This document shows positions 46,459-58,460 of a stretch of 64,000 nucleotides of DNA, piece by piece. Each line of letters opens with the position of its first letter. The stretch's first letter is position 1. A model generated the notes under the pieces. The model saw only the letters and a program-made list of their open reading frames with translations, ran no database searches and had not been told where the DNA came from. The translations under genes were made by a program, and so were the position numbers. The DNA is from Campylobacterales bacterium (GTDB taxonomy: Bacteria; Campylobacterota; Campylobacteria; Campylobacterales; Sulfurospirillaceae): contig JAFGFU010000013.1 in NCBI GenBank assembly GCA_016930915.1, positions 124,001 to 188,000 on the forward strand, in the 5' to 3' direction.

Positions 46459-47715
46459 TTATAAGCTGATTTTAAACCCGTTTTTGCCTTCTACATGTAA
46501 ATACTCTAAAACAAATCCATGCTTCACGATAATGGCATTAGCAATGTAAAGCCCTAGCCCTAAACCTGCACTTGAGCTCTCCACCGCACGGTTAAACGGG
46601 CGGGAAAAGTCCATCTTCTCTTTGGCAATTTCCTCACCCACACTCTCAATGCACACCATCCCCTCTTCAATACGTACATCCACCGTGTGCGTCGAGTGCT
46701 TAAGAGCATTGTCCAAAAGATTTTTCAACGCCGTGGCAAAAAGCTCAAAATCAATCAAAATAAGAGAAACAAACTCTTGTGAATGCACCTCAATACGGCT
46801 CGTATCGCACAGCAGTAAATCCCTCGCATGGTCTAGCACATCGATCATCCGATACGCCTTTGGCTCTAAAACCCACTCGTTGGAGCTTAGTTTTTCCACC
46901 TTCACCATCTCTTCTAAAAGCGTCTCTAAGCGCTCAAAAATGCGCTCCATTTGGCTTTGGTGTTTGGCATTTTCTAAACTATGGCAGACTATTTTACCCT
47001 TCATAATGGGTGTTTTAAGCTCATGCAAGATATTGCGTAAAAAAAGCGTTCGTGCCTCTTTGAGGTGGTGAATTTTCTCCATGGCGTGATTAAACTCAAC
47101 CGCAATTTCACCCAATTCATCCTCACTCTCCACCCCAATGGCTTGAAATTTTTTTGCATTTCCCACATCTTCGATAGCACGTTTAAGATGACGCAGTCGC
47201 AAAAGTTTTCGAAGCACCACACTAAAAAAGAGCACCATCAAAAGGTTAATCACCACCCCTAAAATCCATACACGCTCAGGACGAAACACTCCCTCATCTT
47301 CTAAAACAATCCGTTCATCAACCAACCACATGGGCGGTGGCGGTGGCATACCAAACTCTTTAAAACCATGCGGAGGAGGTGGTGGCGGTGGGAAGCCTTG
47401 CTTAGGCACAAAATAGAGCTTTTTTTCATAGCGCATCATCTCAAATAAAGGGTCTTCCAAAAGAAGCTCTCCGCTTTCGTAGAGCGTTTGCGCTGGCATA
47501 GAACTTATCCTTACATGTAAAGGTTTTAGCTGTTCATTGAGCGTTTCAAAGGAAACATCTTGGGAGAGCCTTACTGCCATGATAAAACGCTGAAACGCAA
47601 AGTAGTTTAACTCACTGTTTTGACGTTTATACTCCAACGCCAACGCAAGGTTAATCACCACCAAACACAACGCAAAAAAGAGGGAAATAAGGGTAATGAT
47701 GGAAATTTTACGCAT
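46459..47715 (-). CDS. Sensor histidine kinase with a polyproline periplasmic domain
   Basis: 418 residues from ATG 47715 (overlaps the regulator stop by 8 bp). Membrane helices at about 5-25 and 155-175; the periplasmic loop has two proline runs (PPPPPPHGF and MPPPPPMW). HAMP, H-box LHELKTPIMKGKI and HATPase (LKNLLDNALKH; SAGLGLGLY) follow. It is a paralogue of the kinase at 14906-16144, with the same type of H-box. The paired regulator is the next gene upstream. Confidence 0.88.
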   Translation of the reverse strand: MRKISIITLISLFFALCLVVINLALALEYKRQNSELNYFAFQRFIMAVRLSQDVSFETLNEQLKPLHVRISSMPAQTLYESGELLLEDPLFEMMRYEKKLYFVPKQGFPPPPPPPHGFKEFGMPPPPPMWLVDERIVLEDEGVFRPERVWILGVVINLLMVLFFSVVLRKLLRLRHLKRAIEDVGNAKKFQAIGVESEDELGEIAVEFNHAMEKIHHLKEARTLFLRNILHELKTPIMKGKIVCHSLENAKHQSQMERIFERLETLLEEMVKVEKLSSNEWVLEPKAYRMIDVLDHARDLLLCDTSRIEVHSQEFVSLILIDFELFATALKNLLDNALKHSTHTVDVRIEEGMVCIESVGEEIAKEKMDFSRPFNRAVESSSAGLGLGLYIANAIIVKHGFVLEYLHVEGKNGFKISL

Positions 47716-48379
47716 TAACAAACTTATAACCAACCCCTCGCACAGAGAGAATAAAACGAGGTTTTTTGGGGTCATCGCCTATTTTTTGGCGAATTCTACC
47801 CATAATGACATCAATGCTTTTCAAACTGCTCTCATACTTGATGGAACCAATGTTTAGCAAAAGCTCTTCTCGAGAAATAACATACCCCTCTTTTTTGAGC
47901 ATATACAAGACAATGTCATACTCTGCTTGGGTGAGTTTGAGTGCTTCTTTGCCACGCTTGATGGTATGGCGCTCCTCATCGACACAAAACGTCACAGAGC
48001 TCACCTCTTCAACGCTACTGCGCCGCCTTAGAATGGCTCGAAGCCTAAACGCTAACTCTCGTGGGTCATAAGGTTTGGGTAAAAAGTCATCCGCCCCTCG
48101 CTCAAAACCCATCACTTTGTCGTTCATATCTGAGCGTGCGGAGGAGATAATAATTGGAAGATTTGGCAAGCTTTGATGCACAATACGGCAAATCTCAAGC
48201 CCATCAATTTGTGGTAAGGAGAGGTCAAGTACAAGTGCGTCAAACACGCCATTTTGCAAAGCAGTTAAACCCTCCAAAGGGCTCAAAGCTAGGCTGGTTT
48301 GAATCTGCTCTTTTAAGAGAGATTCTTGCAAAAGTTGACCCAATTCTACGTCATCTTCAATCATCAATATATTCATCAT
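47708..48379 (-). CDS. OmpR-family response regulator (ArsR-like)
   Basis: 223 residues: acidic pair IEDD, phosphoacceptor Asp in LVLDLSLPQIDG, Lys in LPKPYDP, and an OmpR-type winged helix ending LSVRGVGYKF. The kinase gene follows with an overlap. A TATAAT sits only a few bases before the ATG (48385-48390 on the minus strand), so the transcript may be nearly leaderless. A direct repeat with 11-bp period lies just above it, consistent with autoregulation. Confidence 0.92.
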   Translation of the reverse strand: MMNILMIEDDVELGQLLQESLLKEQIQTSLALSPLEGLTALQNGVFDALVLDLSLPQIDGLEICRIVHQSLPNLPIIISSARSDMNDKVMGFERGADDFLPKPYDPRELAFRLRAILRRRSSVEEVSSVTFCVDEERHTIKRGKEALKLTQAEYDIVLYMLKKEGYVISREELLLNIGSIKYESSLKSIDVIMGRIRQKIGDDPKKPRFILSVRGVGYKFVNA

Positions 48380-48400
48380 GCCTGATTATAACGAAGATAA

Positions 48401-48420
48401 AGTAAACCAAAAGTAACACC
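48401..48420 (-). promoter_or_regulatory. 11-bp-phased direct repeat before the response regulator gene
   Basis: On the plus strand AGTAAACCAAA and AGTAACACCAA follow each other without a gap, so the half-site AGTAA recurs after 11 bp (48401 and 48412). It covers the -35 area of the TATAAT near 48388. OmpR-type regulators usually bind such phased half-sites. A similar pair lies before the EF-hand gene. Confidence 0.5.
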
Positions 48421-48448
48421 AAACCACGCTTTGCTTAGAGCGTGGTTT
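48421..48448 (-). terminator. Hairpin after the EF-hand gene
   Basis: AAACCACGCT / AGCGTGGTTT, a 10-bp stem with an 8-base loop, lies just after the EF-hand stop. The T tract on the minus strand is weak. Confidence 0.65.
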
Positions 48449-48453
48449 AGGGT

Positions 48454-49377
48454 TTAAGCGCTTAAACTAAACGATGAGCTTGAAAGTGAGCTTTGCGTTG
48501 CGTATCGTGAAACGATTTGCGCTAAAAGCGCACTCATCAAAGAATCCTCTGTTGAGCTAGCCTTTGCAACCTCTTCTGTGCCAATGCTGTCGGCTTTAGT
48601 CGATTCTTTATAGGCTTGCGCTTCTGCTGAACTTACTTTGCCATCTTCATTGGTATCGGCTTCGTCAAAATTTTCAACGATAGACTCCAACAACGAAGCA
48701 AGATTGCTATCGGTTTTAGTAGCATCGTTTGCCATAGCGGTAAGCTCCGCTGCGGTGTATCCCTCTGCCTCTTCTGTATCACTGGAAACAGAAGATGGTG
48801 GGGGTGGTGGAGGCATAGCACCAGAGCTTGCAACATTGCTTGCCTCCGTGGTGTCTGTACTCTCGTTTGAAGCCTCTTGGTATGCCATCGCTTCAGCAGA
48901 AGTAACTTTACCATCTCCATCGCTATCAGCCGCATCGAAGTTTTCAACCACTGATGCCAACAAAGAAGCCAAATTGCTATCACTTGAGCCAACCTCTTCT
49001 GCCATTGCAGTAAGCTCCTCTTGTGTATAACCTGTGTCTTCTTCACTGTTAGATGGTGGCGGAGGTGGTGGGGGCATACCACCTGCTGCCATGGTAGAAC
49101 TACTTTGCGAAAGCGAAGCACTGAGCTCCACTTCTGAAATGGTGCCATCGCCATCACTGTCCAATGACGAAAAAGCGCTACTAATAGCACTTTCATCGCT
49201 TATAGAGAGTGCTAGGGCAGCACTACTAAATTCCGCACTATCAACCGAACCACTGCTATCAGAGTCCATAGAAGTAAGCAACGCTTCTGCAAAATCTGAA
49301 TTACTAGAGCGATTCGAGCTGGTCGTGCTACCGTACGAAAGGTAGGTTTCGTAGAGAGAACTTGAACCAACGGTCAT
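48454..49377 (-). CDS. EF-hand protein with polyproline linkers and internal duplication
   Basis: 307 residues from ATG 49377, which has a very strong AAAGGAGGAG site. Four EF-hand loops: DSDSSGSVDSAE, DSDGDGTISEVE, DSDGDGKVTSAE, DTNEDGKVSSAE. Two long units of about 85 residues, each starting GYT.EELTAMA and ending in an EF-hand, are tandem copies joined by Met-polyproline linkers (MPPPPPPP; MPPPPPP). No signal peptide is seen. Ser is very abundant. It may bind Ca2+; the function is unknown. The neighbouring kinase has similar proline runs. Confidence 0.85.
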   Translation of the reverse strand: MTVGSSSLYETYLSYGSTTSSNRSSNSDFAEALLTSMDSDSSGSVDSAEFSSAALALSISDESAISSAFSSLDSDGDGTISEVELSASLSQSSSTMAAGGMPPPPPPPSNSEEDTGYTQEELTAMAEEVGSSDSNLASLLASVVENFDAADSDGDGKVTSAEAMAYQEASNESTDTTEASNVASSGAMPPPPPPSSVSSDTEEAEGYTAAELTAMANDATKTDSNLASLLESIVENFDEADTNEDGKVSSAEAQAYKESTKADSIGTEEVAKASSTEDSLMSALLAQIVSRYATQSSLSSSSFSLSA

Positions 49378-49434
49378 AGTCTCCTCCTTTGTTTGGCTTG
49401 GGAAATTTCCCACATGCCATCCTAATACCAAAGC

Positions 49435-49545: not shown

Positions 49546-50373
49546 ATGAATCAGTCTAATGTGGTTGTTTATAACGATGGAGAAATCGAGCTAAAAGTTT
49601 CTGTGAATGAAGAAACACTATGGTTAAATGCAGAAGATATTGCTTATATTTTTAACGTAAAACGACCTGCTATCGTTAAGCATATCGGAAATATCTATAA
49701 AGATGAGGAACTGATGGAAAATGTAACCTGTTCCATTTTGGAACAAGTTGCGAAAGATGGAAAAGTCAGGAAAATAAATTTCTATAACCTCGATATGATT
49801 ATCTCTCTTGGCTATCGTGTCAATTCAAAAAAAGCGACAAAATTTCGCCAATGGGCAACATCCGTACTCAAAAACTACATCCAAAACGGCTACGCACTCA
49901 ATTCACATAAAATCACAGAACAACGCTTATCAAGCCTTGAAAAAGATGTGGAGACTATCAAATCTCACATCAAAAACAACACGCTTGAAATGAAAGAAGG
50001 CATCTTTTTTAATGGACAAGTATTTGACGCATATGCTCTTTTGTCCGACCTCATCAAACGTGCCAAAGTCTCCATCACATTGATAGACAACTACATTGAT
50101 GAGTCTATCTTGACCCTCTTTTCAAAAAATAAAAGTGTAAAATTCACCATTTACACGGGGAACATCACCAAACAACTCCAATTAGACATTGAAAAATACA
50201 ACAAACAATACGGCAATCTTGAAGTGAAAACTACTCAAAACTTTCACGATAGATTTCTCATTTGCGATGAGAGCGTGTATCATTTCGGGGCAAGTTTGAA
50301 AGATTTAGGCAAAAAAGTATTTGCGGTCAATCCGATGAATATTCACGCACATGAACTATTAAAAAATGTATAG
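49546..50373 (+). CDS. RhuM/ORF6N-type DNA-binding protein with C-terminal PLD-like domain
   Basis: 275 residues. The N-terminal half (LWLNAEDIAYIFNVKRPAIVKHI; KINFYNLDMIISLGYRVNSKKATKFRQWA) is the RhuM/virulence-protein family that is related to phage ORF6N/KilA DNA-binding domains. The C-terminal half (ITLIDNYIDESILTLFSKN; FHDRFLICDESVYHFGASLKD) carries a phospholipase D-like His-x-x-Phe-x-x-Asp nuclease-type motif. This pairing is typical of mobile or defence-related genes. It stands alone between two minus-strand units. Confidence 0.82.
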   Translation: MNQSNVVVYNDGEIELKVSVNEETLWLNAEDIAYIFNVKRPAIVKHIGNIYKDEELMENVTCSILEQVAKDGKVRKINFYNLDMIISLGYRVNSKKATKFRQWATSVLKNYIQNGYALNSHKITEQRLSSLEKDVETIKSHIKNNTLEMKEGIFFNGQVFDAYALLSDLIKRAKVSITLIDNYIDESILTLFSKNKSVKFTIYTGNITKQLQLDIEKYNKQYGNLEVKTTQNFHDRFLICDESVYHFGASLKDLGKKVFAVNPMNIHAHELLKNV

Positions 50374-50530: not shown

Positions 50531-52321
50531 TTACACTGGGGCTTGAAGGTACATTTTATCGAGGTTTTTGCCTATAAAAACCAAAAACATCTCATGCACT
50601 TGGTCTTCGTGTTGAGGGACAAATTCATAGGTACCGTTTACATATTGCACCACCGATTGCGTGGATTCATTTTCAAACTGCACAATCCCTTTCAGCCGAA
50701 CAATCGTGGAAGGAAGATGGTTCAAATAGGCTTCAAATCGCTCTTTGCTTAAAGGACGAGGAATGCTTAGCTTTAAACTAGAGATATGGTCGTGCAGATG
50801 GGTATGAATGACCTCATCCTCTTCCGCAACCAAAGAAGCAATCTGCGCAGTGGTCGCATGCAAGGAAAGTGCAAGGGCATGGGGGTGGACATCACACTGA
50901 ATGGTTCGAATCACCTTAGCACATCGGTTGTTTTCGTATAAAAAGTGCTCTGCTTTTACTATCGCTTCTTCGCTCATTCTGTCTATTTTGTTGAGCAGTA
51001 TAATATCCGCAGCGCGAATCTGGTCAAGAAAAATCGCATACTCTCCCGCCAAATCAAAGAGCGTAGCCCCATCCACCACCGTAACAATCGCTTCCAACTC
51101 CACCACATCTTCAAGCTCATGAAGTTCAGATAAGAGATTAAAAGGGTTTGCCACCCCTGTGGTTTCTAGTAAAATGGTATCGGGATAGGTTTTGCTCATG
51201 AGCGTATTCACTCCTGCTCGAAGCTGTCCTGCCAAAGAGCAGCACACACACCCCTCATCCATCTCCACGAGTGAATAATCATAATCGACCAGTTTCCCAT
51301 CCAACCCCGTTTTGCCTATCTCATTTTGAATAATCCCCACAAAACGGTTTTTTTCGGTCTCATACTCAATGTAATTTTGTAAAAAGTTCGTCTTCCCTGA
51401 ACCCAAAAATCCAGTCACCACCACCATTTTAGGTTTTACGCCACGACCAGTGGTACGGGCAACACTGCCTAAAGGAGTTTCAGAAAGATCATACCACGGT
51501 GCTTTTTGCAAAAAGGCATTGAGGCTCATGCGCTCATGGATCACCTCCACATGTCGCCCCATCAAAAGCTGCTCCATAGAATCATCAAAAGAGTCATCCC
51601 CATATCCTAGCGCAATGAAAAGCTTAAGGGTTGGCGCATCTTCTTTACATGTAAAGACCCCTTTGCCATTGTACATCATGCTCTGCTCTCGTTTTTTAAA
51701 CAGCTCAAAGTACGAGGGTGCCTCCGTGGCAATACGAGAAAGCGTGGTGTTAAGAAAATTCATCAAAGGAAGCAGCAAACGAAACGAAGGCAGGTCTTTA
51801 TCTAAACCCTCAGGCTCAACCACATAACGCTTATCATACGATAAAACACCCTCTTTAGCGTACACACGATCTCTCAAAAATGTCTCATAAAAAAGCAATA
51901 AAGCATGCGTTGCAAAGTTTACATGTAACGATAAACTTGCAATATAAAACTGCCCAAAAAGCTCAGGATAAAGCGCAAAAGAGCGTATCTTTTCACGGTA
52001 ATCTTTATCCTGCGAAACCAACGCTTCACTGAGTGAAAATTTATCGAGTAAGGCTTCTTCGGGATTGGGAAAATAGTAAAGATGAAACCGTCCAAACCCA
52101 TCCCTTACCTCTGCTAACACCATCCCAAAAATACCTTCAAATTGGTCAAACTTGAGCGTCCAACACTCTGTGGGTTGTTGGCACAGATACATCCCTTTAT
52201 AACCTGTAAGCTTTTTTAACATACCATCGTATGAGCCTTTGATGAGCACGGAGCGCATAAACGCTCGATAATCCTCAAATGAGCCATCAAACGACGAAGG
52301 ATAAAGTTCCACAAGATTCAT
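50531..52321 (-). CDS. COG0523-family GTPase with a long unknown N-terminal domain
   Basis: 596 residues from ATG 52321 (GAGGAG site). Residues 1-295 match nothing I recognise. From residue 298 a CobW/COG0523 GTPase begins: P-loop GFLGSGKT (304-311), metal site CVCC (358-361) in EGCVCCSL, NKID and a C-terminal domain. COG0523 proteins are metal chaperones for Zn, Co or Ni. Most family members are about 300-400 residues, so this is a fusion. It follows the periplasmic metallo-beta-lactamase gene, with a hairpin in between. Confidence 0.85.
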   Translation of the reverse strand: MNLVELYPSSFDGSFEDYRAFMRSVLIKGSYDGMLKKLTGYKGMYLCQQPTECWTLKFDQFEGIFGMVLAEVRDGFGRFHLYYFPNPEEALLDKFSLSEALVSQDKDYREKIRSFALYPELFGQFYIASLSLHVNFATHALLLFYETFLRDRVYAKEGVLSYDKRYVVEPEGLDKDLPSFRLLLPLMNFLNTTLSRIATEAPSYFELFKKREQSMMYNGKGVFTCKEDAPTLKLFIALGYGDDSFDDSMEQLLMGRHVEVIHERMSLNAFLQKAPWYDLSETPLGSVARTTGRGVKPKMVVVTGFLGSGKTNFLQNYIEYETEKNRFVGIIQNEIGKTGLDGKLVDYDYSLVEMDEGCVCCSLAGQLRAGVNTLMSKTYPDTILLETTGVANPFNLLSELHELEDVVELEAIVTVVDGATLFDLAGEYAIFLDQIRAADIILLNKIDRMSEEAIVKAEHFLYENNRCAKVIRTIQCDVHPHALALSLHATTAQIASLVAEEDEVIHTHLHDHISSLKLSIPRPLSKERFEAYLNHLPSTIVRLKGIVQFENESTQSVVQYVNGTYEFVPQHEDQVHEMFLVFIGKNLDKMYLQAPV

Positions 52322-52337
52322 ACCATTCTCCTCAAAA

Positions 52338-52366
52338 AAGAGCCAAAGCGTCACACTTTGGCTCTT
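52338..52366 (-). terminator. Terminator-like hairpin between the MBL and GTPase genes
   Basis: AAGAGCCAAAG / CTTTGGCTCTT, an 11-bp perfect stem with a 7-base loop, is followed on the minus strand by TTTTTTGAGG, so it looks like a rho-independent terminator. The ribosome site of the GTPase gene follows directly, so it probably attenuates rather than ends the operon. Confidence 0.7.
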
Positions 52367-52371
52367 CAAAT

Positions 52372-53532
52372 TTACCCAAAAGTGAGTGTATCTCCATTGC
52401 CCAAATAGGCATGACTTTTAGAGCGATGTTGCGCCGTACCTTTAACCACAGGATAACCTGCTCGTATAAATTTTTCTGCCGTTAAAAGTCCCGTACAGTG
52501 GTTACACCCAATAATATCAAATCCCCATTTTCCAAGAGAAATAACCAAATCATCGTACTTTGGATCCCAATCATCAAATGGGGAGATGTGAAGCCCACCG
52601 TAAATACCGTGCATTTTGTCATTGTCGTATTTAAGCTCATTCTTTGCCGTGGTAATAAACTGAATAATCCCTTGATGGCAACACCCAGAAATGCTCACCA
52701 AACCCTTATCTTTAACATTGGCAAAGATAGACTGTTCGCCAAACACCCGTGAGATAATAGGCACATCAAACGTATAGGTACAAAGACCTGGTTCGATGTC
52801 ATTTTTACCTTTTTTATGCACGACCAACTCACCCTTATGACCTGAATCTTTGATGTACTGTAAACCCTCTTTGTAAAAACCATCAGGGATGATGATTTTG
52901 ATGTTAGGAGCGTACTTCATCGTTACAGGCAATCCCCAAAAATGGTCAAAGTGCTCATGCGAAATAATCAAAGCCTCGATTTCATTGTTCGCAAGCATCT
53001 TATCAATGCCCTCACGCTTAAAGCATTGATCCATCCACTCATACGACCAACCGCTATCTAAAAGGTATTTTTTCTTTACACCGTCTAAACGTTCAATCTC
53101 AATGAGGGCAGCAAAGCCCCCTGCATTTTCAGGGTGGATGCTATTGGCTTTCACAATTTTCCATGCCTCTTCAAGATTATGCGGAAGCAAATGCTTAATT
53201 TTAGCAATCCCCCTCGCATAACTTCCTTTCGCAAGTCCTGAGCCATCGCCAAAGGGAGGCCAATTGTAAAGGTATTGGTCAACCAAGAGTCCACCAGCCC
53301 CTTTCATATCCCCCATCAAAATGGAGTTATCAAACCAACTGGTCTCTGAGATATTGGTAATTTTCACACTTTTACATGCACCAAAGTCCGCCATTTTACG
53401 CTCAACCTCAGGCAAAAAGAAGGAACGCATTGGCGAATACGAGAAGATTCCCATGGTCGCCATCGTTCCAAAACCAAGCCCTGTGACTGCGCCCTTTAGA
53501 AAATCCCGTCTTGTTGTTTGTTCTGTTGACAT
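52372..53532 (-). CDS. Tat-exported metallo-beta-lactamase-fold hydrolase (COG1237-like)
   Basis: 386 residues from ATG 53532 (AAGGAG site). Tat signal TRRDFLKG at about 7-14. Metal-binding motif SHEHFDH (His192, His194, Asp196, His197), then SGCCHQG, GGLHISPFD and GCNHCTG, an arrangement that fits the COG1237 group (dihydropterin-phosphate synthase-like MBL proteins). The substrate is unknown. It follows the membrane protein by 10 bp and precedes the metal GTPase, so a metal-dependent periplasmic function served by that GTPase is a reasonable guess. Confidence 0.83.
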   Translation of the reverse strand: MSTEQTTRRDFLKGAVTGLGFGTMATMGIFSYSPMRSFFLPEVERKMADFGACKSVKITNISETSWFDNSILMGDMKGAGGLLVDQYLYNWPPFGDGSGLAKGSYARGIAKIKHLLPHNLEEAWKIVKANSIHPENAGGFAALIEIERLDGVKKKYLLDSGWSYEWMDQCFKREGIDKMLANNEIEALIISHEHFDHFWGLPVTMKYAPNIKIIIPDGFYKEGLQYIKDSGHKGELVVHKKGKNDIEPGLCTYTFDVPIISRVFGEQSIFANVKDKGLVSISGCCHQGIIQFITTAKNELKYDNDKMHGIYGGLHISPFDDWDPKYDDLVISLGKWGFDIIGCNHCTGLLTAEKFIRAGYPVVKGTAQHRSKSHAYLGNGDTLTFG

Positions 53533-53542
53533 GATTTTCTCC

Positions 53543-54931
53543 TTATTTAAAGATAATGAGCGCTGAGCCCATGAATGGGATAAGATAGACAATCACAAAA
53601 TAAAGCGCTACCCCAGCAAGTGTTCCACCTGCAACCCCTTTGTAAAACGAACCACTCAAAGCAACACGCTCATAACTCACATGCGTAATGGGTGCTTTTT
53701 CACTCGCTTCTGCCAAACGCCATCCTGGCCAGCCATCCATAAACCAGTAGTTAATCAACATAATATTAATCAACCAAATCAAAGGAATCATCGGAAACTG
53801 TTGAGGATGAGAGAATCCTTCTTGTGTACCTAAAAAGAGATGCGCTGTTTTATAATAGACATAATAAAGCACCACCGCTCCTGCAATAGAAGCAACCGTT
53901 CGTAAAAAGACATTCATCACTTTACTGTACGCATTAAAGCCATTTTTCATGTAAAAATGCATGTAAAGGGCTGGTAAAAGCCAAAAAATTGCCATTTCAC
54001 CCACATGCAACCAACGCCAATCAGGTGATGCGTCACGTCTGGTTCCTCGAATCGCCTCACCCCAGACTAATTCTTGTGCAAAGTAGAGAAAGAAGCTAAG
54101 CGCTACGGCAATGACAATAATGCCAAAGAAAGAAGCAACACGACGAAGCCATGGTGTTTCGATCATAGAGAAAGGATAACGCTCCCAAATCGTCTCATGC
54201 ATCCAGACAATCACCGTACAACACATAATCCATGCAATGTTAAAGTTACCATGCACAGTTCCTGCAAAATCTTCCCACCACGGAGGTGTAATCGCCGCAA
54301 ATTTTTGCCATGGATCAAATAAAATCGCCATATGAGAGTGAAACGCCACAAAATAGACAATCACACTGATAAAAAAGGTAAACATCAAAATAGAGAAACC
54401 TTTGACAGGCTGAGCAAGTTTATCCCACGGTGAACTCTCCATCGCTACCACCCACGCAGGACTGAGCCACGAAGCAATCGCTGCAAACATCAAAATCGCT
54501 TGTGCGGAGTATTCAAGAGCGTAAAACTCAACAATGCCCTCTTTCGTAAGACGCTCAGGACTAAAGTACGCAATCGCATACTCGCCTAAAATCGTCTCAA
54601 AAAACCCTTTAAGCACAATCATAAACAACGCCACGGTGAGTGTCGTTAAGATGACACCCTTTAAAACAGGATGCGTATTTTTCAGCCACGACCTACTAAA
54701 AGGCCAAAAGTCAAAAATGTAGGCAATCCAAATCATAATGACCAACAGCCAACGACACCACATGTACCCTACATACGGCGTGTACATACGCATAATACCC
54801 CTTGGGTCTTGAAATATCCACCATGAGACATAAAACAATGTCAAGACAAAAAGAGTATTGAGCAGTATGGGTAAAGGACCACTAAAACGCTTCACCAAAC
54901 TTCTCTCTTCGAGATAAAGCGGTGTTTCCAT
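53543..54931 (-). CDS. Polytopic membrane protein of unknown function
   Basis: 462 residues from ATG 54931 (TAGGAGG site). Ten to twelve membrane helices; many Trp, His and Met within or next to the helices (VYFVAFHSHMAILFDPW; FNIAWIMCCTVIVWMHETIWERYPF; WLHVGEMAIFWLLPALYMHFYM). I do not recognise the family. It heads the operon with the Tat-exported MBL protein and the COG0523 GTPase and stands 114 bp after the two-component pair, with a repeat array in between. Confidence 0.72.
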   Translation of the reverse strand: METPLYLEERSLVKRFSGPLPILLNTLFVLTLFYVSWWIFQDPRGIMRMYTPYVGYMWCRWLLVIMIWIAYIFDFWPFSRSWLKNTHPVLKGVILTTLTVALFMIVLKGFFETILGEYAIAYFSPERLTKEGIVEFYALEYSAQAILMFAAIASWLSPAWVVAMESSPWDKLAQPVKGFSILMFTFFISVIVYFVAFHSHMAILFDPWQKFAAITPPWWEDFAGTVHGNFNIAWIMCCTVIVWMHETIWERYPFSMIETPWLRRVASFFGIIVIAVALSFFLYFAQELVWGEAIRGTRRDASPDWRWLHVGEMAIFWLLPALYMHFYMKNGFNAYSKVMNVFLRTVASIAGAVVLYYVYYKTAHLFLGTQEGFSHPQQFPMIPLIWLINIMLINYWFMDGWPGWRLAEASEKAPITHVSYERVALSGSFYKGVAGGTLAGVALYFVIVYLIPFMGSALIIFK

Positions 54932-54985
54932 GAAAAACCTCCTACAATAATATTTTAAATGCATGAAGTTATTATAGGAGGAGAG

Positions 54986-55051
54986 TGTCTGGGGATTGTC
55001 TCACTTAAAAAGAAGAAAAGAAGAAAAAATGTCTCGCAAATGTCTCACTTA
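54986..55051 (-). promoter_or_regulatory. Four-copy TGTCT(C) repeat array before the membrane protein/MBL/GTPase operon
   Basis: TGTCT begins at 54986, 54997, 55030 and 55041 on the plus strand, with steps of 11, 33 and 11 bp, i.e. whole helical turns. The second and fourth copies share the longer TGTCTCACTTA (11 of 11 identical). The array lies 55-120 bp before the membrane protein ATG and partly overlaps the stop of the kinase gene. It is a probable binding site for the response regulator at 56580-57290. Confidence 0.65.
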
Positions 55052-56595
55052 GGAAGTATAATGGTAAAAACAGCACCACCATCTTCGTTGTGTACTTTTA
55101 ACACACCCCGACAGTGCTCTTCCACCACGGTTTTTGACATACACAAGCCTACACCTGTACCATCTTTATGGAGCTTTGTTGAAAAATACGCCTCAAAAAT
55201 TTTCTCAAATAACGCCTCTTCAATCCCTCCAGCGTTATCTCTGATTTCTAAAAAAAGAAAGCGAGAATCGCAATACGTCCGAATCCAGATGGTGGGTTCT
55301 TTAATGCCATTATCCATCAATGCATCTTCTGCGTTTTTGATAATATTTAAAATAACTTGCGCTAACTCATTGCCATAGGTCTCAATTTCTTCGTTACATG
55401 TAAACTCTGTGACAATAGAGATATTTTTTGTTGTCAAAAGCGGTTTGGTGATGGTGAGCGTTTTTTCAACCAACGCCTCTAAACTCACCCTCTCTTTTTG
55501 TTTGAGTGATTTAAAGAAATTGCGAAAATCATCAATCGTTTTAGAGAGATGCAACACATACCCCTCAATATGCTCAACCTCCTCTTGAAACGCTTCTTTT
55601 TCTATCTCATCCATCTCAATACGTGCCAATAAATAACTCGTAGTTGCCCCAATCGCAGCTAAGGGTTGTCGCCATTGATGGGCTATCATACTGAGCATCT
55701 CACCCATTTGAATAAGGCGGGATTGGTACTGAAGCTGTTTATCTTTTTCACGCAATTTTTCAAGCTGGATTTGCACCTCTTGATGGAGAGTTTCATTGAG
55801 CTGTTTGATTTTTCGCTCATTCTCTTTTTGTTTGGTGATATCAAGCGTCGTTCCTATCAATTTAATGGGTACACCATTCTCATCATAAATCGCTTTACGG
55901 TAAGTATTAATAAACACCCGACGCCCATCTTGACGCATAATTTCATAATCCAACACCTCACTCTTTCCACTTTGCAAGGCTTTTTCATTGATGGTATACA
56001 TTCTCTTCAAATCTTTAGAACTCAAATAGCGTTGAAAAGAGCTAAGTGTTGGTAAAAAGGTATGTGGGTCTTCTCCATAAATGCGGTACATCTCCTCAGA
56101 CCACTTCATCTGGTGTGTTTCATCCAACAAAATTTCCCAACTTCCAAAATGCGCAATCGCCTCCGCATTTTTCAAAAGTGCTTCACTTTGCCTCAAACGC
56201 TCTTGAGTCTCAATGCGCTCTGTGATATCACTAATCGTCCATAACACTTCTTCATTGGTAGGTATCGAATCTCCAGCAATACGAAGCCAAATCATCTTTC
56301 CATTTTTGTGTTTAAAAGGATATTCTAAATTAAGCGCTTCATTTTGCCTCACTTTATTAAAAGCTATCTCAGCAAAATTGACATACGCCGCATACGATAA
56401 ATGTAATTCAAACGCTGAATGATTTAAAATCTCATCAGCGCTATAACCAAAGATTTTACAAAACGCTTCATTGGCTTCAATAATTAAACGCTCTTTATCG
56501 ACAATAAAAATCCCCACACCGCTGTTGCTAAAGAGTTGCTCAAACCGTTCGGCTTTTTGTTTAAGGCTTACCGTACTACTTAAAGATGAAGCCAT
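55045..56595 (-). CDS. Soluble PAS-PAS histidine kinase
   Basis: 516 residues with no membrane helix. PAS1 at about 15-125 (NSGVGIFIVDKERLIIEANEAF), PAS2 at about 140-255 (FGSWEILLDETHQMKW; GTTLDITKQKEN), a coiled-coil, H-box MIAHQWRQPLAAIG, and HATPase (N-box VILNIIKNAEDAL, G-box DGTGVGLCMSK). It senses a cytoplasmic signal, possibly redox or metal state (inference). It overlaps the regulator gene by 16 bp and probably drives the operon at 50531-54931. Confidence 0.9.
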   Translation of the reverse strand: MASSLSSTVSLKQKAERFEQLFSNSGVGIFIVDKERLIIEANEAFCKIFGYSADEILNHSAFELHLSYAAYVNFAEIAFNKVRQNEALNLEYPFKHKNGKMIWLRIAGDSIPTNEEVLWTISDITERIETQERLRQSEALLKNAEAIAHFGSWEILLDETHQMKWSEEMYRIYGEDPHTFLPTLSSFQRYLSSKDLKRMYTINEKALQSGKSEVLDYEIMRQDGRRVFINTYRKAIYDENGVPIKLIGTTLDITKQKENERKIKQLNETLHQEVQIQLEKLREKDKQLQYQSRLIQMGEMLSMIAHQWRQPLAAIGATTSYLLARIEMDEIEKEAFQEEVEHIEGYVLHLSKTIDDFRNFFKSLKQKERVSLEALVEKTLTITKPLLTTKNISIVTEFTCNEEIETYGNELAQVILNIIKNAEDALMDNGIKEPTIWIRTYCDSRFLFLEIRDNAGGIEEALFEKIFEAYFSTKLHKDGTGVGLCMSKTVVEEHCRGVLKVHNEDGGAVFTIILPK

Positions 56596-57290
56596 CGTAG
56601 TTTATACCCTTCCCCATAGATACTTTGTATCAAATCGCATCCTAATTTTTGGCGCAAACGAGACAAAAGGTTACGTACCCGTTTGTTATCACTAAGATCA
56701 TCATCAAACACGGCTATTTCTATCTCTTCACTGGAAAAAATACGCTGTTTTGAAGAAGTCAGCAAATCAAACAAAGCACGTTCATGCCTGCTTAATTTAA
56801 TCTCCCGCTCCTCTTGACATAAACATTGCGTTGCCCTCTCCCAATAATACCCTTCAATCATCAAAAGCATATGCCCTTTTTCGTGAGGCAAAACCTTAAC
56901 AATCTTTTCAAGAATCGATACAATCTCATGAAATCCATACGGCTTTAAGATATAGCCTGAAATGCCTTGCTCAATCGTTTTAAGAAAGTACTCGGTGGTG
57001 TCATACGCAGAGAAAATCACAATAGGAATGGATGGATTGAGCTTGCGTATGGCTTCAATCATACCCAAGCCATCCATCTTTGGCATCGTAATATCGGTAA
57101 AAATAAAATCAAAGGACTCCTGATTAAAGCATTGAAGACCCTCTAACCCATCGTGTGCTTCAACAACATCTTTAAAGTAGAGTCGAAGCATCTTAGAGGT
57201 TTGAATTCTAACATCAGGGTCATCTTCCACATAAAGAACACGCTTACTCTTACATGCCTCTTTAAGCGATAAAAGCACTTCTGAATCCAT
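56580..57290 (-). CDS. Response regulator of the PAS kinase
   Basis: 236 residues. Receiver with YVEDD, phosphoacceptor Asp in FIFTDITMPKMDG and Lys in ILKPYG. C-terminal OmpR-like winged helix ending QSIYGEGYKLRW. It is expressed with the kinase. NspC's gene ends 27 bp upstream, with a palindrome (57301) in that spacer. Confidence 0.9.
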   Translation of the reverse strand: MDSEVLLSLKEACKSKRVLYVEDDPDVRIQTSKMLRLYFKDVVEAHDGLEGLQCFNQESFDFIFTDITMPKMDGLGMIEAIRKLNPSIPIVIFSAYDTTEYFLKTIEQGISGYILKPYGFHEIVSILEKIVKVLPHEKGHMLLMIEGYYWERATQCLCQEEREIKLSRHERALFDLLTSSKQRIFSSEEIEIAVFDDDLSDNKRVRNLLSRLRQKLGCDLIQSIYGEGYKLRWLHL

Positions 57291-57317
57291 TTTTTTCCTT
57301 TTTACATGTAAAGAATA

Positions 57318-58460
57318 TTAATTGCGTCTTTTATACTCATCGTACCCAAAATGACTCACGACTTCATACGCTCCATCTTTTCGCAAAACGGCTAAATCAG
57401 GTAATTTCACGCCATTAAAGGTCGTATTTTTCACGATGGTGTAGTGAATCATATCTTCAAAAATAAGTTTATCACCAATGCTTAGGGGGGCGTCAAAACT
57501 GTAATCCCCCATAATATCCCCCGCCAAACACGTAGGGCCTCCAAGGCGGTACATGTAAGGCTTTTCACCCACGTCACCCGCACCGCGAATCGCCGCACGA
57601 TAGGGCATGGCAAGGGTGTCAGGCATATGTGCCTCAGCGGAAATATCAAGAATGGCGATGTCCATGCCATTATGCACGATGTCCAAAACACTCGCCACCA
57701 ATGGACCTGTCTGCCAGCCTACTGCTTCCCCAGGTTCTAAATAAACCGTAATGCCATTGTATCGTTTCCTAAAATCTTGAATCAGCGCAATGAGTTTTTC
57801 CACATCATACCCCTCACGGGTAATGTGATGCCCTCCTCCAAAGTTAATCCATTTCATACGAGGAATCAACTCGCCAAAACGCTCCTCAAAGCCTTTGAGA
57901 ACTGCTTCAAGCGCACTGGAGTCCTGCTCACAAAGAGCGTGAAAATGAAGCCCCTCAATGCCCTCAAGCTTGTCGTAGTGCATATTTTCTTTGGTGATGC
58001 CCAAGCGACTGTAAAGAGCGCACGGGTTGTACAAATCCACAGGAGAAGAGGAAACCTCAGGGTTAAGTCTGAGTCCGCAACTGGTTTTGCCGATGGCTTT
58101 TGCTTTATATTTTTCCCATTGGTTAAACGAGTTAAAGATAAGATGGTCACTCAAAGCGATGACCTCATCGATGTCCTCTTCTTTGTACGCTGGAGAGTAG
58201 GTGCACACCGAGCCTTTGAAAAACTCTTTAGCGAACTTAGCTTCATGTAAACCGCTGCACGTACAGCCACGGAGGTATTTATCTACCAAAGGAGCTAGTG
58301 CTTTAAACGCAAAGCCTTTAAGCGCGAGTAAAATGGTCGCACCTGAACGCTCAGCGACCTCTTTTAATAGCTTCAAATTTTCTTCTAAAAGTGCCTCTTC
58401 GCAAACATACGCAGGCGTGTTTACCTGCGCTAAAACCGTTTCAATTTTGCTTATTTTCAT
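57318..58460 (-). CDS. nspC: Carboxynorspermidine decarboxylase
   Basis: 380 residues of the alanine-racemase-fold PLP decarboxylases. Lys in LLALKGF binds PLP; HFHALCE, FGGGHHIT, LEPGEAVG and SAEAHMPDTL match NspC. It makes spermidine or norspermidine from the carboxy precursor. In Campylobacterota this is the usual route. The partner dehydrogenase gene lies at 61235-62449, separated by two other genes. Confidence 0.92.
   Translation of the reverse strand: MKISKIETVLAQVNTPAYVCEEALLEENLKLLKEVAERSGATILLALKGFAFKALAPLVDKYLRGCTCSGLHEAKFAKEFFKGSVCTYSPAYKEEDIDEVIALSDHLIFNSFNQWEKYKAKAIGKTSCGLRLNPEVSSSPVDLYNPCALYSRLGITKENMHYDKLEGIEGLHFHALCEQDSSALEAVLKGFEERFGELIPRMKWINFGGGHHITREGYDVEKLIALIQDFRKRYNGITVYLEPGEAVGWQTGPLVASVLDIVHNGMDIAILDISAEAHMPDTLAMPYRAAIRGAGDVGEKPYMYRLGGPTCLAGDIMGDYSFDAPLSIGDKLIFEDMIHYTIVKNTTFNGVKLPDLAVLRKDGAYEVVSHFGYDEYKRRN

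Follow-up and report, generated by a model that had tools for sequence, protein, structure and literature searches.

The locus

Here, we describe a five-gene locus in a stretch of 64,000 nucleotides from a Campylobacterales bacterium (assembly GCA_016930915.1, contig JAFGFU010000013.1, positions 124,001 to 188,000)—hereafter 'the window', whose numbering is used throughout—and a gene module at its centre that is built on a polytopic membrane protein (MP), an exported hydrolase of the metallo-beta-lactamase fold (MBL), and the N-terminal domain (N-domain) of a long GTPase. All five genes lie on the minus strand within 50531-57290, the regulator first, followed by the kinase, MP, MBL, and the GTPase, and are the tightly spaced same-strand set that an earlier reading of the bare sequence (the original prediction) had delineated. 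The genes and the two parts of the GTPase are as follows.

56580-57290, minus strand: OmpR/PhoB-type response regulator with receiver and winged-helix domains (Pfam Response_reg 1.6e-25, Trans_reg_C 2.1e-11), adjoining in most Campylobacterota loci
55045-56595, minus strand: soluble PAS-PAS histidine kinase (Pfam PAS_3, PAS_9, HisKA, HATPase_c)
53543-54931, minus strand: MP, a polytopic membrane protein of type I (AlphaFold2 model; homologues in 80 loci)
52372-53532, minus strand: MBL, a Tat-targeted, probably N-anchored COG1237-type metallo-beta-lactamase-fold hydrolase with intact metal ligands
50531-52321, minus strand: long GTPase, whole gene (open reading frame extending to 52369)
51438-52321, minus strand: N-domain of the long GTPase, unnamed and helix-grip-like (AlphaFold2 pLDDT 93; co-occurrence; stand-alone homologues)
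50531-51437, minus strand: COG0523 (CobW-type) GTPase domain with CobW_C (Walker A GFLGSGKT, CVCC metal motif; Pfam cobW 3.4e-38, CobW_C 4.5e-14)

The start of MP was set at METPLY, as in its homologues (the open reading frame itself opens at 54964), and that of MBL at the conserved MSTEQ (open reading frame extending to 53592). With these starts, 10 bp separate MP from MBL and 50 bp separate MBL from the GTPase gene, and the kinase gene overlaps the end of the regulator gene, stop codon included, by 16 bp.

Recurrence of the module across genomes

A profile search of genome contigs with MP returned 110 coding loci, of which 80 were fetched; the neighbourhood counts given below refer to these 80 plus the window. 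The fetched loci encode MPs with 56-99% identity to that of the window and, judging from record titles, span Campylobacterota, Desulfobacterota, Deferribacteres, Alpha- and Betaproteobacteria, Bacteroidales, Spirochaetia, and SAR324. When the surrounding reading frames were clustered, MP was present in 81 loci (including the window), MBL in 79, and the long GTPase in 71. In 78 of 78 loci with enough flanking sequence, MBL is the gene directly after MP, and in 68 of 76 the GTPase occupies the next place, with one order and strand across phyla. Three of the eight GTPase exceptions (L088, L092, L101) still have the fused protein, which is mis-clustered, located further downstream, or encoded on the opposite strand; four (L073, L085, L089, L090) encode the N-domain on its own, upstream of MP; and L091 is the remaining one. 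The original prediction had read the three effector genes as one system and had named their co-occurrence elsewhere as its own test; the set indeed recurs across phyla.

The same pattern holds within narrower groups. Of 60 relatives of the host, 11 carry MP, and exactly these 11 also have the N-domain and the long form of MBL; among the 60, the long form is found only alongside the other two, and all other MBL matches are weak and partial (25-37% identity). Fifty of 199 genomes of one Desulfovibrio order carry MP, all 50 of these also carry the N-domain, and the N-domain stands alone in only two. Pairwise distances of the three proteins co-vary (Mantel r 0.81-0.82, vs at most 0.18 in permutations), as a set of genes travelling as one would be expected to show. 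MP has a patchy distribution: it was confirmed in 10 of 397 Campylobacterota and in two of 398 genomes of the phylum of Rhodobium, and no MP locus was found on a plasmid. A weak match in the Campylobacterota genome G194 was taken as false, the reading frame looking like LptG.

MP, MBL, and the N-domain therefore constitute a conserved module. Because MP, MBL, and the long GTPase almost always co-occur in many unrelated bacteria, the gene set probably forms one undiscovered cell-envelope machine in oxygen-avoiding bacteria. MBL and the GTPase belong to known families, and MP and the N-domain fall outside the libraries searched. A search of the open-access literature returned no paper joining MP, MBL, and the GTPase, although subscription papers could still hold one; the passages searched in two proteome and transcriptome papers on S. 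multivorans (PMC4585668, PMC7755780) do not mention the module, and the text of a COG0523 survey (PMC2770081) mentions no lactamase partner. As a unit, the system is firmly established, and its mechanism is weakly supported.

The membrane protein and its three types

The AlphaFold2 model of MP (mean confidence [pLDDT] 82.8, predicted TM-score [pTM] 0.87) shows 11 long membrane helices, one fewer than the 12 first proposed. That MP could not be assigned to a family has been borne out at the level of Pfam, NCBIfam, and Protein Data Bank (PDB) sequences: the window MP has no Pfam or NCBIfam match, 69 homologues have no consistent one (the best, E 3e-4, occurs in a single member), and profile searches of PDB sequences revealed no relative. 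Fold searches with the model likewise found no convincing relative (Foldseek best E 0.16, VIA Z at most 4.3). Subunits ActC/ActF of alternative complex III recur among the best Foldseek rows, but with E of at least 0.16, TM-scores of 0.15-0.18, and a root-mean-square deviation (rmsd) of about 20 A the match is not meaningful, and we rejected both this fold and a GPCR-like one as superficial search results. The periplasmic loops, rich in Trp and His, suggested a link to copper monooxygenases; no AmoC match was found in the 69 MPs at E 1, and an AmoC search of the host genomes lacked a positive control.

With the N-terminus placed inside, 45 of 89 positions in periplasmic loops are conserved at 95% or more, vs 28 of 98 in cytoplasmic loops. 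The conserved outer-loop motifs are WWIFQDPRG, HSHM..PWQ, PPWWE, GxxxRGT..PDWRWLHVGE, and KTxHLFLGTQxGFSHPQQFP. Since the outer loops are near-invariant and the inner side is freer, the shared chemistry or recognition of MP would be periplasmic.

Two further types of MP were found, neither with a convincing Pfam or NCBIfam match. Type II operons (L131, L132, L141, L148-L151) consist of genes for MBL, MP, and a stand-alone N-domain, without the GTPase. Type III MPs (L142-L147, L152-L154) are separate proteins of about 430 residues; they form an unnamed, highly conserved family in Desulfobacterota-type genomes, with acyl-CoA synthetases (L146, L147) or methylmalonyl-CoA mutase together with MeaB (L143, L144, L153) as neighbours. 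Profile comparisons support homology of the types (E 1.6e-73 for type I vs type II; E 1.1e-16 over 383 columns for type I vs type III), and the MP of the window is the type I member of a new membrane superfamily of three types. Thirty positions are common to all three, including the H-x-x-E pair H320/E323 (H320 invariant, E323 nearly so), PxW of PPWWE, and a cytoplasmic WPF motif, and helix 11 is limited to type I. A motif resembling WP[FI]..LxQPxxG occurs threefold in type III MPs, which hints at an internal duplication.

Some type II operons also encode a small protein of 88-93 residues with a twin-arginine-like start, between the MP and N-domain genes (L131:10601-10882; L141:10139-10405), and a monohaem cytochrome c (CLACH) is encoded directly upstream of one of them (L141:7162-7608).

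The exported hydrolase

By sequence, MBL is of the COG1237 type, matching PDB entry 7dck with E 1.5e-11 and also 2p4z and 3h3e. The ligands H212, H214, D216, H217, H306, H335, and H365 are invariant in homologues and align with those of the three structures, and with HxHxDH and the downstream His ligands in place MBL is predicted to be a hydrolase. The likeness to COG1237 hydrolases extends over the core and the motifs HxHxDH, GC-x-H, GGxH, and HC(T/S)G; unlike them, MBL is Tat-targeted, probably N-anchored, and provided with an insertion before the core, and the resemblance is a sequence match at E 1.5e-11 only.

A twin-arginine-type motif followed by a hydrophobic stretch, as in substrates of the twin-arginine translocation (Tat) pathway, is found in 78 of 82 sequences of the MBL cluster, although TAT_signal matches to the window MBL itself are weak. 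The signals comprise RRxF, a glycine-rich stretch, and a conserved SYSP-R segment, and nearly all homologues have no AxA cleavage site. The Tat signal that had been predicted is thus present; what changes is its role, as it probably stays uncleaved and serves as an anchor helix, perhaps packed on MP.

The long GTPase

The GTPase half is a COG0523 protein, with Pfam cobW at 131.5 bits, CobW_C at 52.5 bits, and a CxCC motif conserved in homologues; it is not the CobW equivalog (TIGR02475 106 bits, vs a cut-off of 332). It shares the GTPase domain, CxCC motif, and CobW_C with other COG0523/G3E GTPases (CobW, YjiA, ZigA, nitrile hydratase activator) and differs from them in an extra N-domain of about 300 residues, which accounts for its length and also occurs as a separate protein. 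This N-domain is unnamed and has no Pfam model. Nearly all of the best VIA matches to its AlphaFold2 model (pLDDT 93) are helix-grip proteins (e.g., PR-10, CoxG-like, START; Z at most 5.5, rmsd 4.4 over 128 residues), and Foldseek found nothing convincing; on this modelled likeness, the N-domain perhaps has a helix-grip fold and hence binds a hydrophobic ligand.

Homology of the N-domain to the stand-alone type II proteins is firm (E 2.1e-25). Type II operons and some Rhodospirillaceae lack the GTPase and have the N-domain on its own. Because the N-domain outlasts the loss of the GTPase, we count it, with MP and MBL, among the core components and treat the GTPase as accessory. The proposal that a metal GTPase serves the exported metalloenzyme fits these data, with the amendment that this partner is missing from type II operons.

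Regulation of the operon

Ahead of MP, TGTCT copies at 54986, 54997, 55030, and 55041 (steps of 11, 33, and 11 bp, in agreement with the original prediction) mark two half-site pairs and, with a candidate promoter element, give the following features.

55030-55045, minus strand: distal half-site pair AGACATTTGCGAGACA with an 11-bp step (AGACA-N6-AGACA count; conserved across Sulfurospirillum loci)
54986-55001, minus strand: proximal half-site pair AGACAATCCCCAGACA, ending 9 nt ahead of the -10 hexamer (conservation; AGACA-N6-AGACA count)
54971-54976, minus strand: candidate -10 hexamer TATAAT of the MP-MBL-GTPase operon (sequence; conserved in related loci)

Two direct half-site pairs ahead of a -10 element are the layout of a PhoB-type activator site. 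AGACA-N6-AGACA matches twice in the window, both times in the array (0.12 expected from shuffles). Most Sulfurospirillum-type loci keep the full array, GAGACA-N5-GAGACA ... GAGACA-N5-CAGACA, at a near-constant distance to MP, and Arcobacter-type loci have a related TAGACA form. This conservation upholds the suggestion that the repeats are a regulatory site: the array is a predicted, conserved PhoB-box-like site, and the adjoining regulator has the matching domain. As in PhoB/OmpR-type control, a winged-helix regulator is paired with two pairs of 11-bp-spaced direct half-sites, the proximal one just before the -10 element; in contrast, the half-site here is AGACA and the kinase is soluble with two PAS domains. 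The looser TGTCT-N4-8-TGTCT pattern is not enriched in the whole genome (7 and 4, vs controls of 6 and 5), and we therefore regard the array as a local site and reject a genome-wide regulon for the repeats.

Regulators are exchanged between lineages. Campylobacterota use the PAS kinase and its regulator, a GntR-FCD regulator occurs in 41 loci and a PAS protein in 35, and sigma-54 PAS activators often lie near Desulfobacterota loci. The PAS kinase, which the original prediction had counted as part of the system, is consequently not core, other lineages using GntR with a PAS protein or sigma-54 PAS activators; the effector system, the unassignable membrane protein, and the regulatory array all stand. 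Because PAS-domain control recurs, the inducing signal is likely to be cytoplasmic. One further locus (L134:7534-10757) keeps the PAS protein, GntR regulator, and N-domain without MP, MBL, or the GTPase domain, and is likely an operon remnant.

Accessory and neighbouring genes

ExbB, ExbD, and a short TonB are encoded after the GTPase in about 20 loci. A small lipoprotein-like or exported protein is encoded next to MBL or the GTPase at about ten loci (L053, L054, L060, L080, L081, L092, L093, L094, L096, L098); it contains the domain IPEMKE...GPKGGKVEY once or twice and has no convincing Pfam match.

In the window, a RhuM/KilA-N-like protein (49546-50373) is encoded convergently with the GTPase gene; in the close relative L115, two more genes separate it from the operon. 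A second OmpR-type two-component system (46459-49431), whose kinase has a Pro/His-rich stretch PPPPPPPHGFKEFGMPPPPPMW, adjoins a protein that has two PPPPPP stretches and repeats resembling EF-hands, and the two may be a calcium- or metal-related pair. Compared with L114 and L115, the window (56580-58460) lacks several genes from the interval that separates the regulator from nspC; these encode YjiG/YjiH-like membrane proteins and an amidohydrolase of the M20 type.

Proposed mechanism and alternatives

The reading that we favour, and hold tentatively, is that of a trans-envelope three-part module of anaerobes, located in the inner membrane and periplasm, in which a metal-loaded, Tat-exported, and anchored MBL works on the periplasmic face of MP. 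It builds on the observed co-occurrence, gene order, domain content, intact metal ligands, and conserved regulatory site, from which we infer the topology, complex formation, metal loading, transport or catalysis, and substrate class. MBL would fold and take up its metals in the cytoplasm, aided in type I by a dedicated COG0523 GTPase, and would then be exported folded by Tat; metal insertion in the cytoplasm ahead of folded export would account for the GTPase as well as for the use of a Tat signal. The uncleaved glycine-rich signal helix would keep MBL anchored beside MP, and the two might jointly process one substrate at the invariant periplasmic face of MP, which would either carry the product inward or hold a second catalytic site. 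At the inner side, the N-domain could act as an acceptor (perhaps of a hydrophobic product) or as an assembly factor. Where ExbB-ExbD-TonB is attached, the proton-motive force would probably drive import of the substrate across the outer membrane, and in this genome the PAS kinase and PhoB-like regulator would switch the operon on via the AGACA array.

Several points weigh against this scheme. Common descent would make the distances co-vary as well; the topology of MP rests on the AlphaFold2 helices and a positive-inside rule with only modest bias; the helix-grip likeness of the N-domain is weak; and type II MBLs can have an AxA-like cleavage site, which makes anchoring not universal. MBL and the N-domain are missing near type III MPs, implying that MP can act alone, and TonB genes are missing from most loci, the window included.

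An alternative that we consider unlikely places the chemistry in MP itself, as a membrane redox or metal enzyme with a metal or quinone site formed by H320, E323, other conserved Glu and His residues, and the Trp-rich face towards the periplasm, with MBL as its soluble catalytic or electron-accepting partner and the whole module as an anaerobic oxidoreductase. The invariance of H320 in all three types and near-invariance of E323 speak for it, as does the median MP identity of 0.63 across phyla, a degree of conservation that would suit an energy-converting enzyme; many hosts are respiratory anaerobes according to record titles, and a monohaem cytochrome c gene precedes the type II operon of L141. 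That cytochrome was found only once, however, and MP has no haem-binding CXXCH, flavin, or Fe-S motif and no fold match to a known redox membrane protein, while the ligands of MBL are of the hydrolase type.

Two readings centred on the GTPase and TonB are less probable. Members of COG0523 often serve zinc homeostasis (PMC2770081), and with ExbB-ExbD-TonB following the operon in some loci, one could picture metal acquisition or sparing in which a metal or metallophore enters by way of MP and TonB, is distributed by the GTPase, and is released by MBL; we doubt this, as the regulators are PAS two-component systems, GntR-FCD proteins, or sigma-54 PAS activators rather than metal repressors, and the GTPase is missing in type II and some type I operons. 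A role in cobamide salvage or cobalt handling is very improbable. It would draw on the CobW-type GTPase, the TonB genes, cobT directly upstream of one type III MP, other corrinoid-pathway genes at most 10 kb from some type III MPs, and B12-dependent methylmalonyl-CoA mutase near three, yet corrinoid genes are common in such anaerobes, which makes proximity weak evidence, and the GTPase scores far under the CobW equivalog cut-off. Riboswitch control of this kind was rejected, no cobalamin riboswitch having been detected in the 15 loci scanned or in the window.

Significance

The module is widespread in anaerobes—among them Bilophila-, Desulfovibrio-, and Sutterella-type gut bacteria, sulfate reducers, purple bacteria, and Campylobacterota—and centres on a membrane protein outside public family libraries. 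With the order of its genes, its partners, and its regulatory site established, the module's function is open to direct experimental attack, and a metal-chaperone-type GTPase gains a concrete candidate client, clients being an open question for most COG0523 subgroups. It is conceivable, if short of an even chance, that MP founds a superfamily of membrane-embedded enzymes or transporters with a periplasmic metal site, and that MP, MBL, and the N-domain together represent an undescribed energy- or nutrient-related pathway of gut, marine, and subsurface anaerobes.

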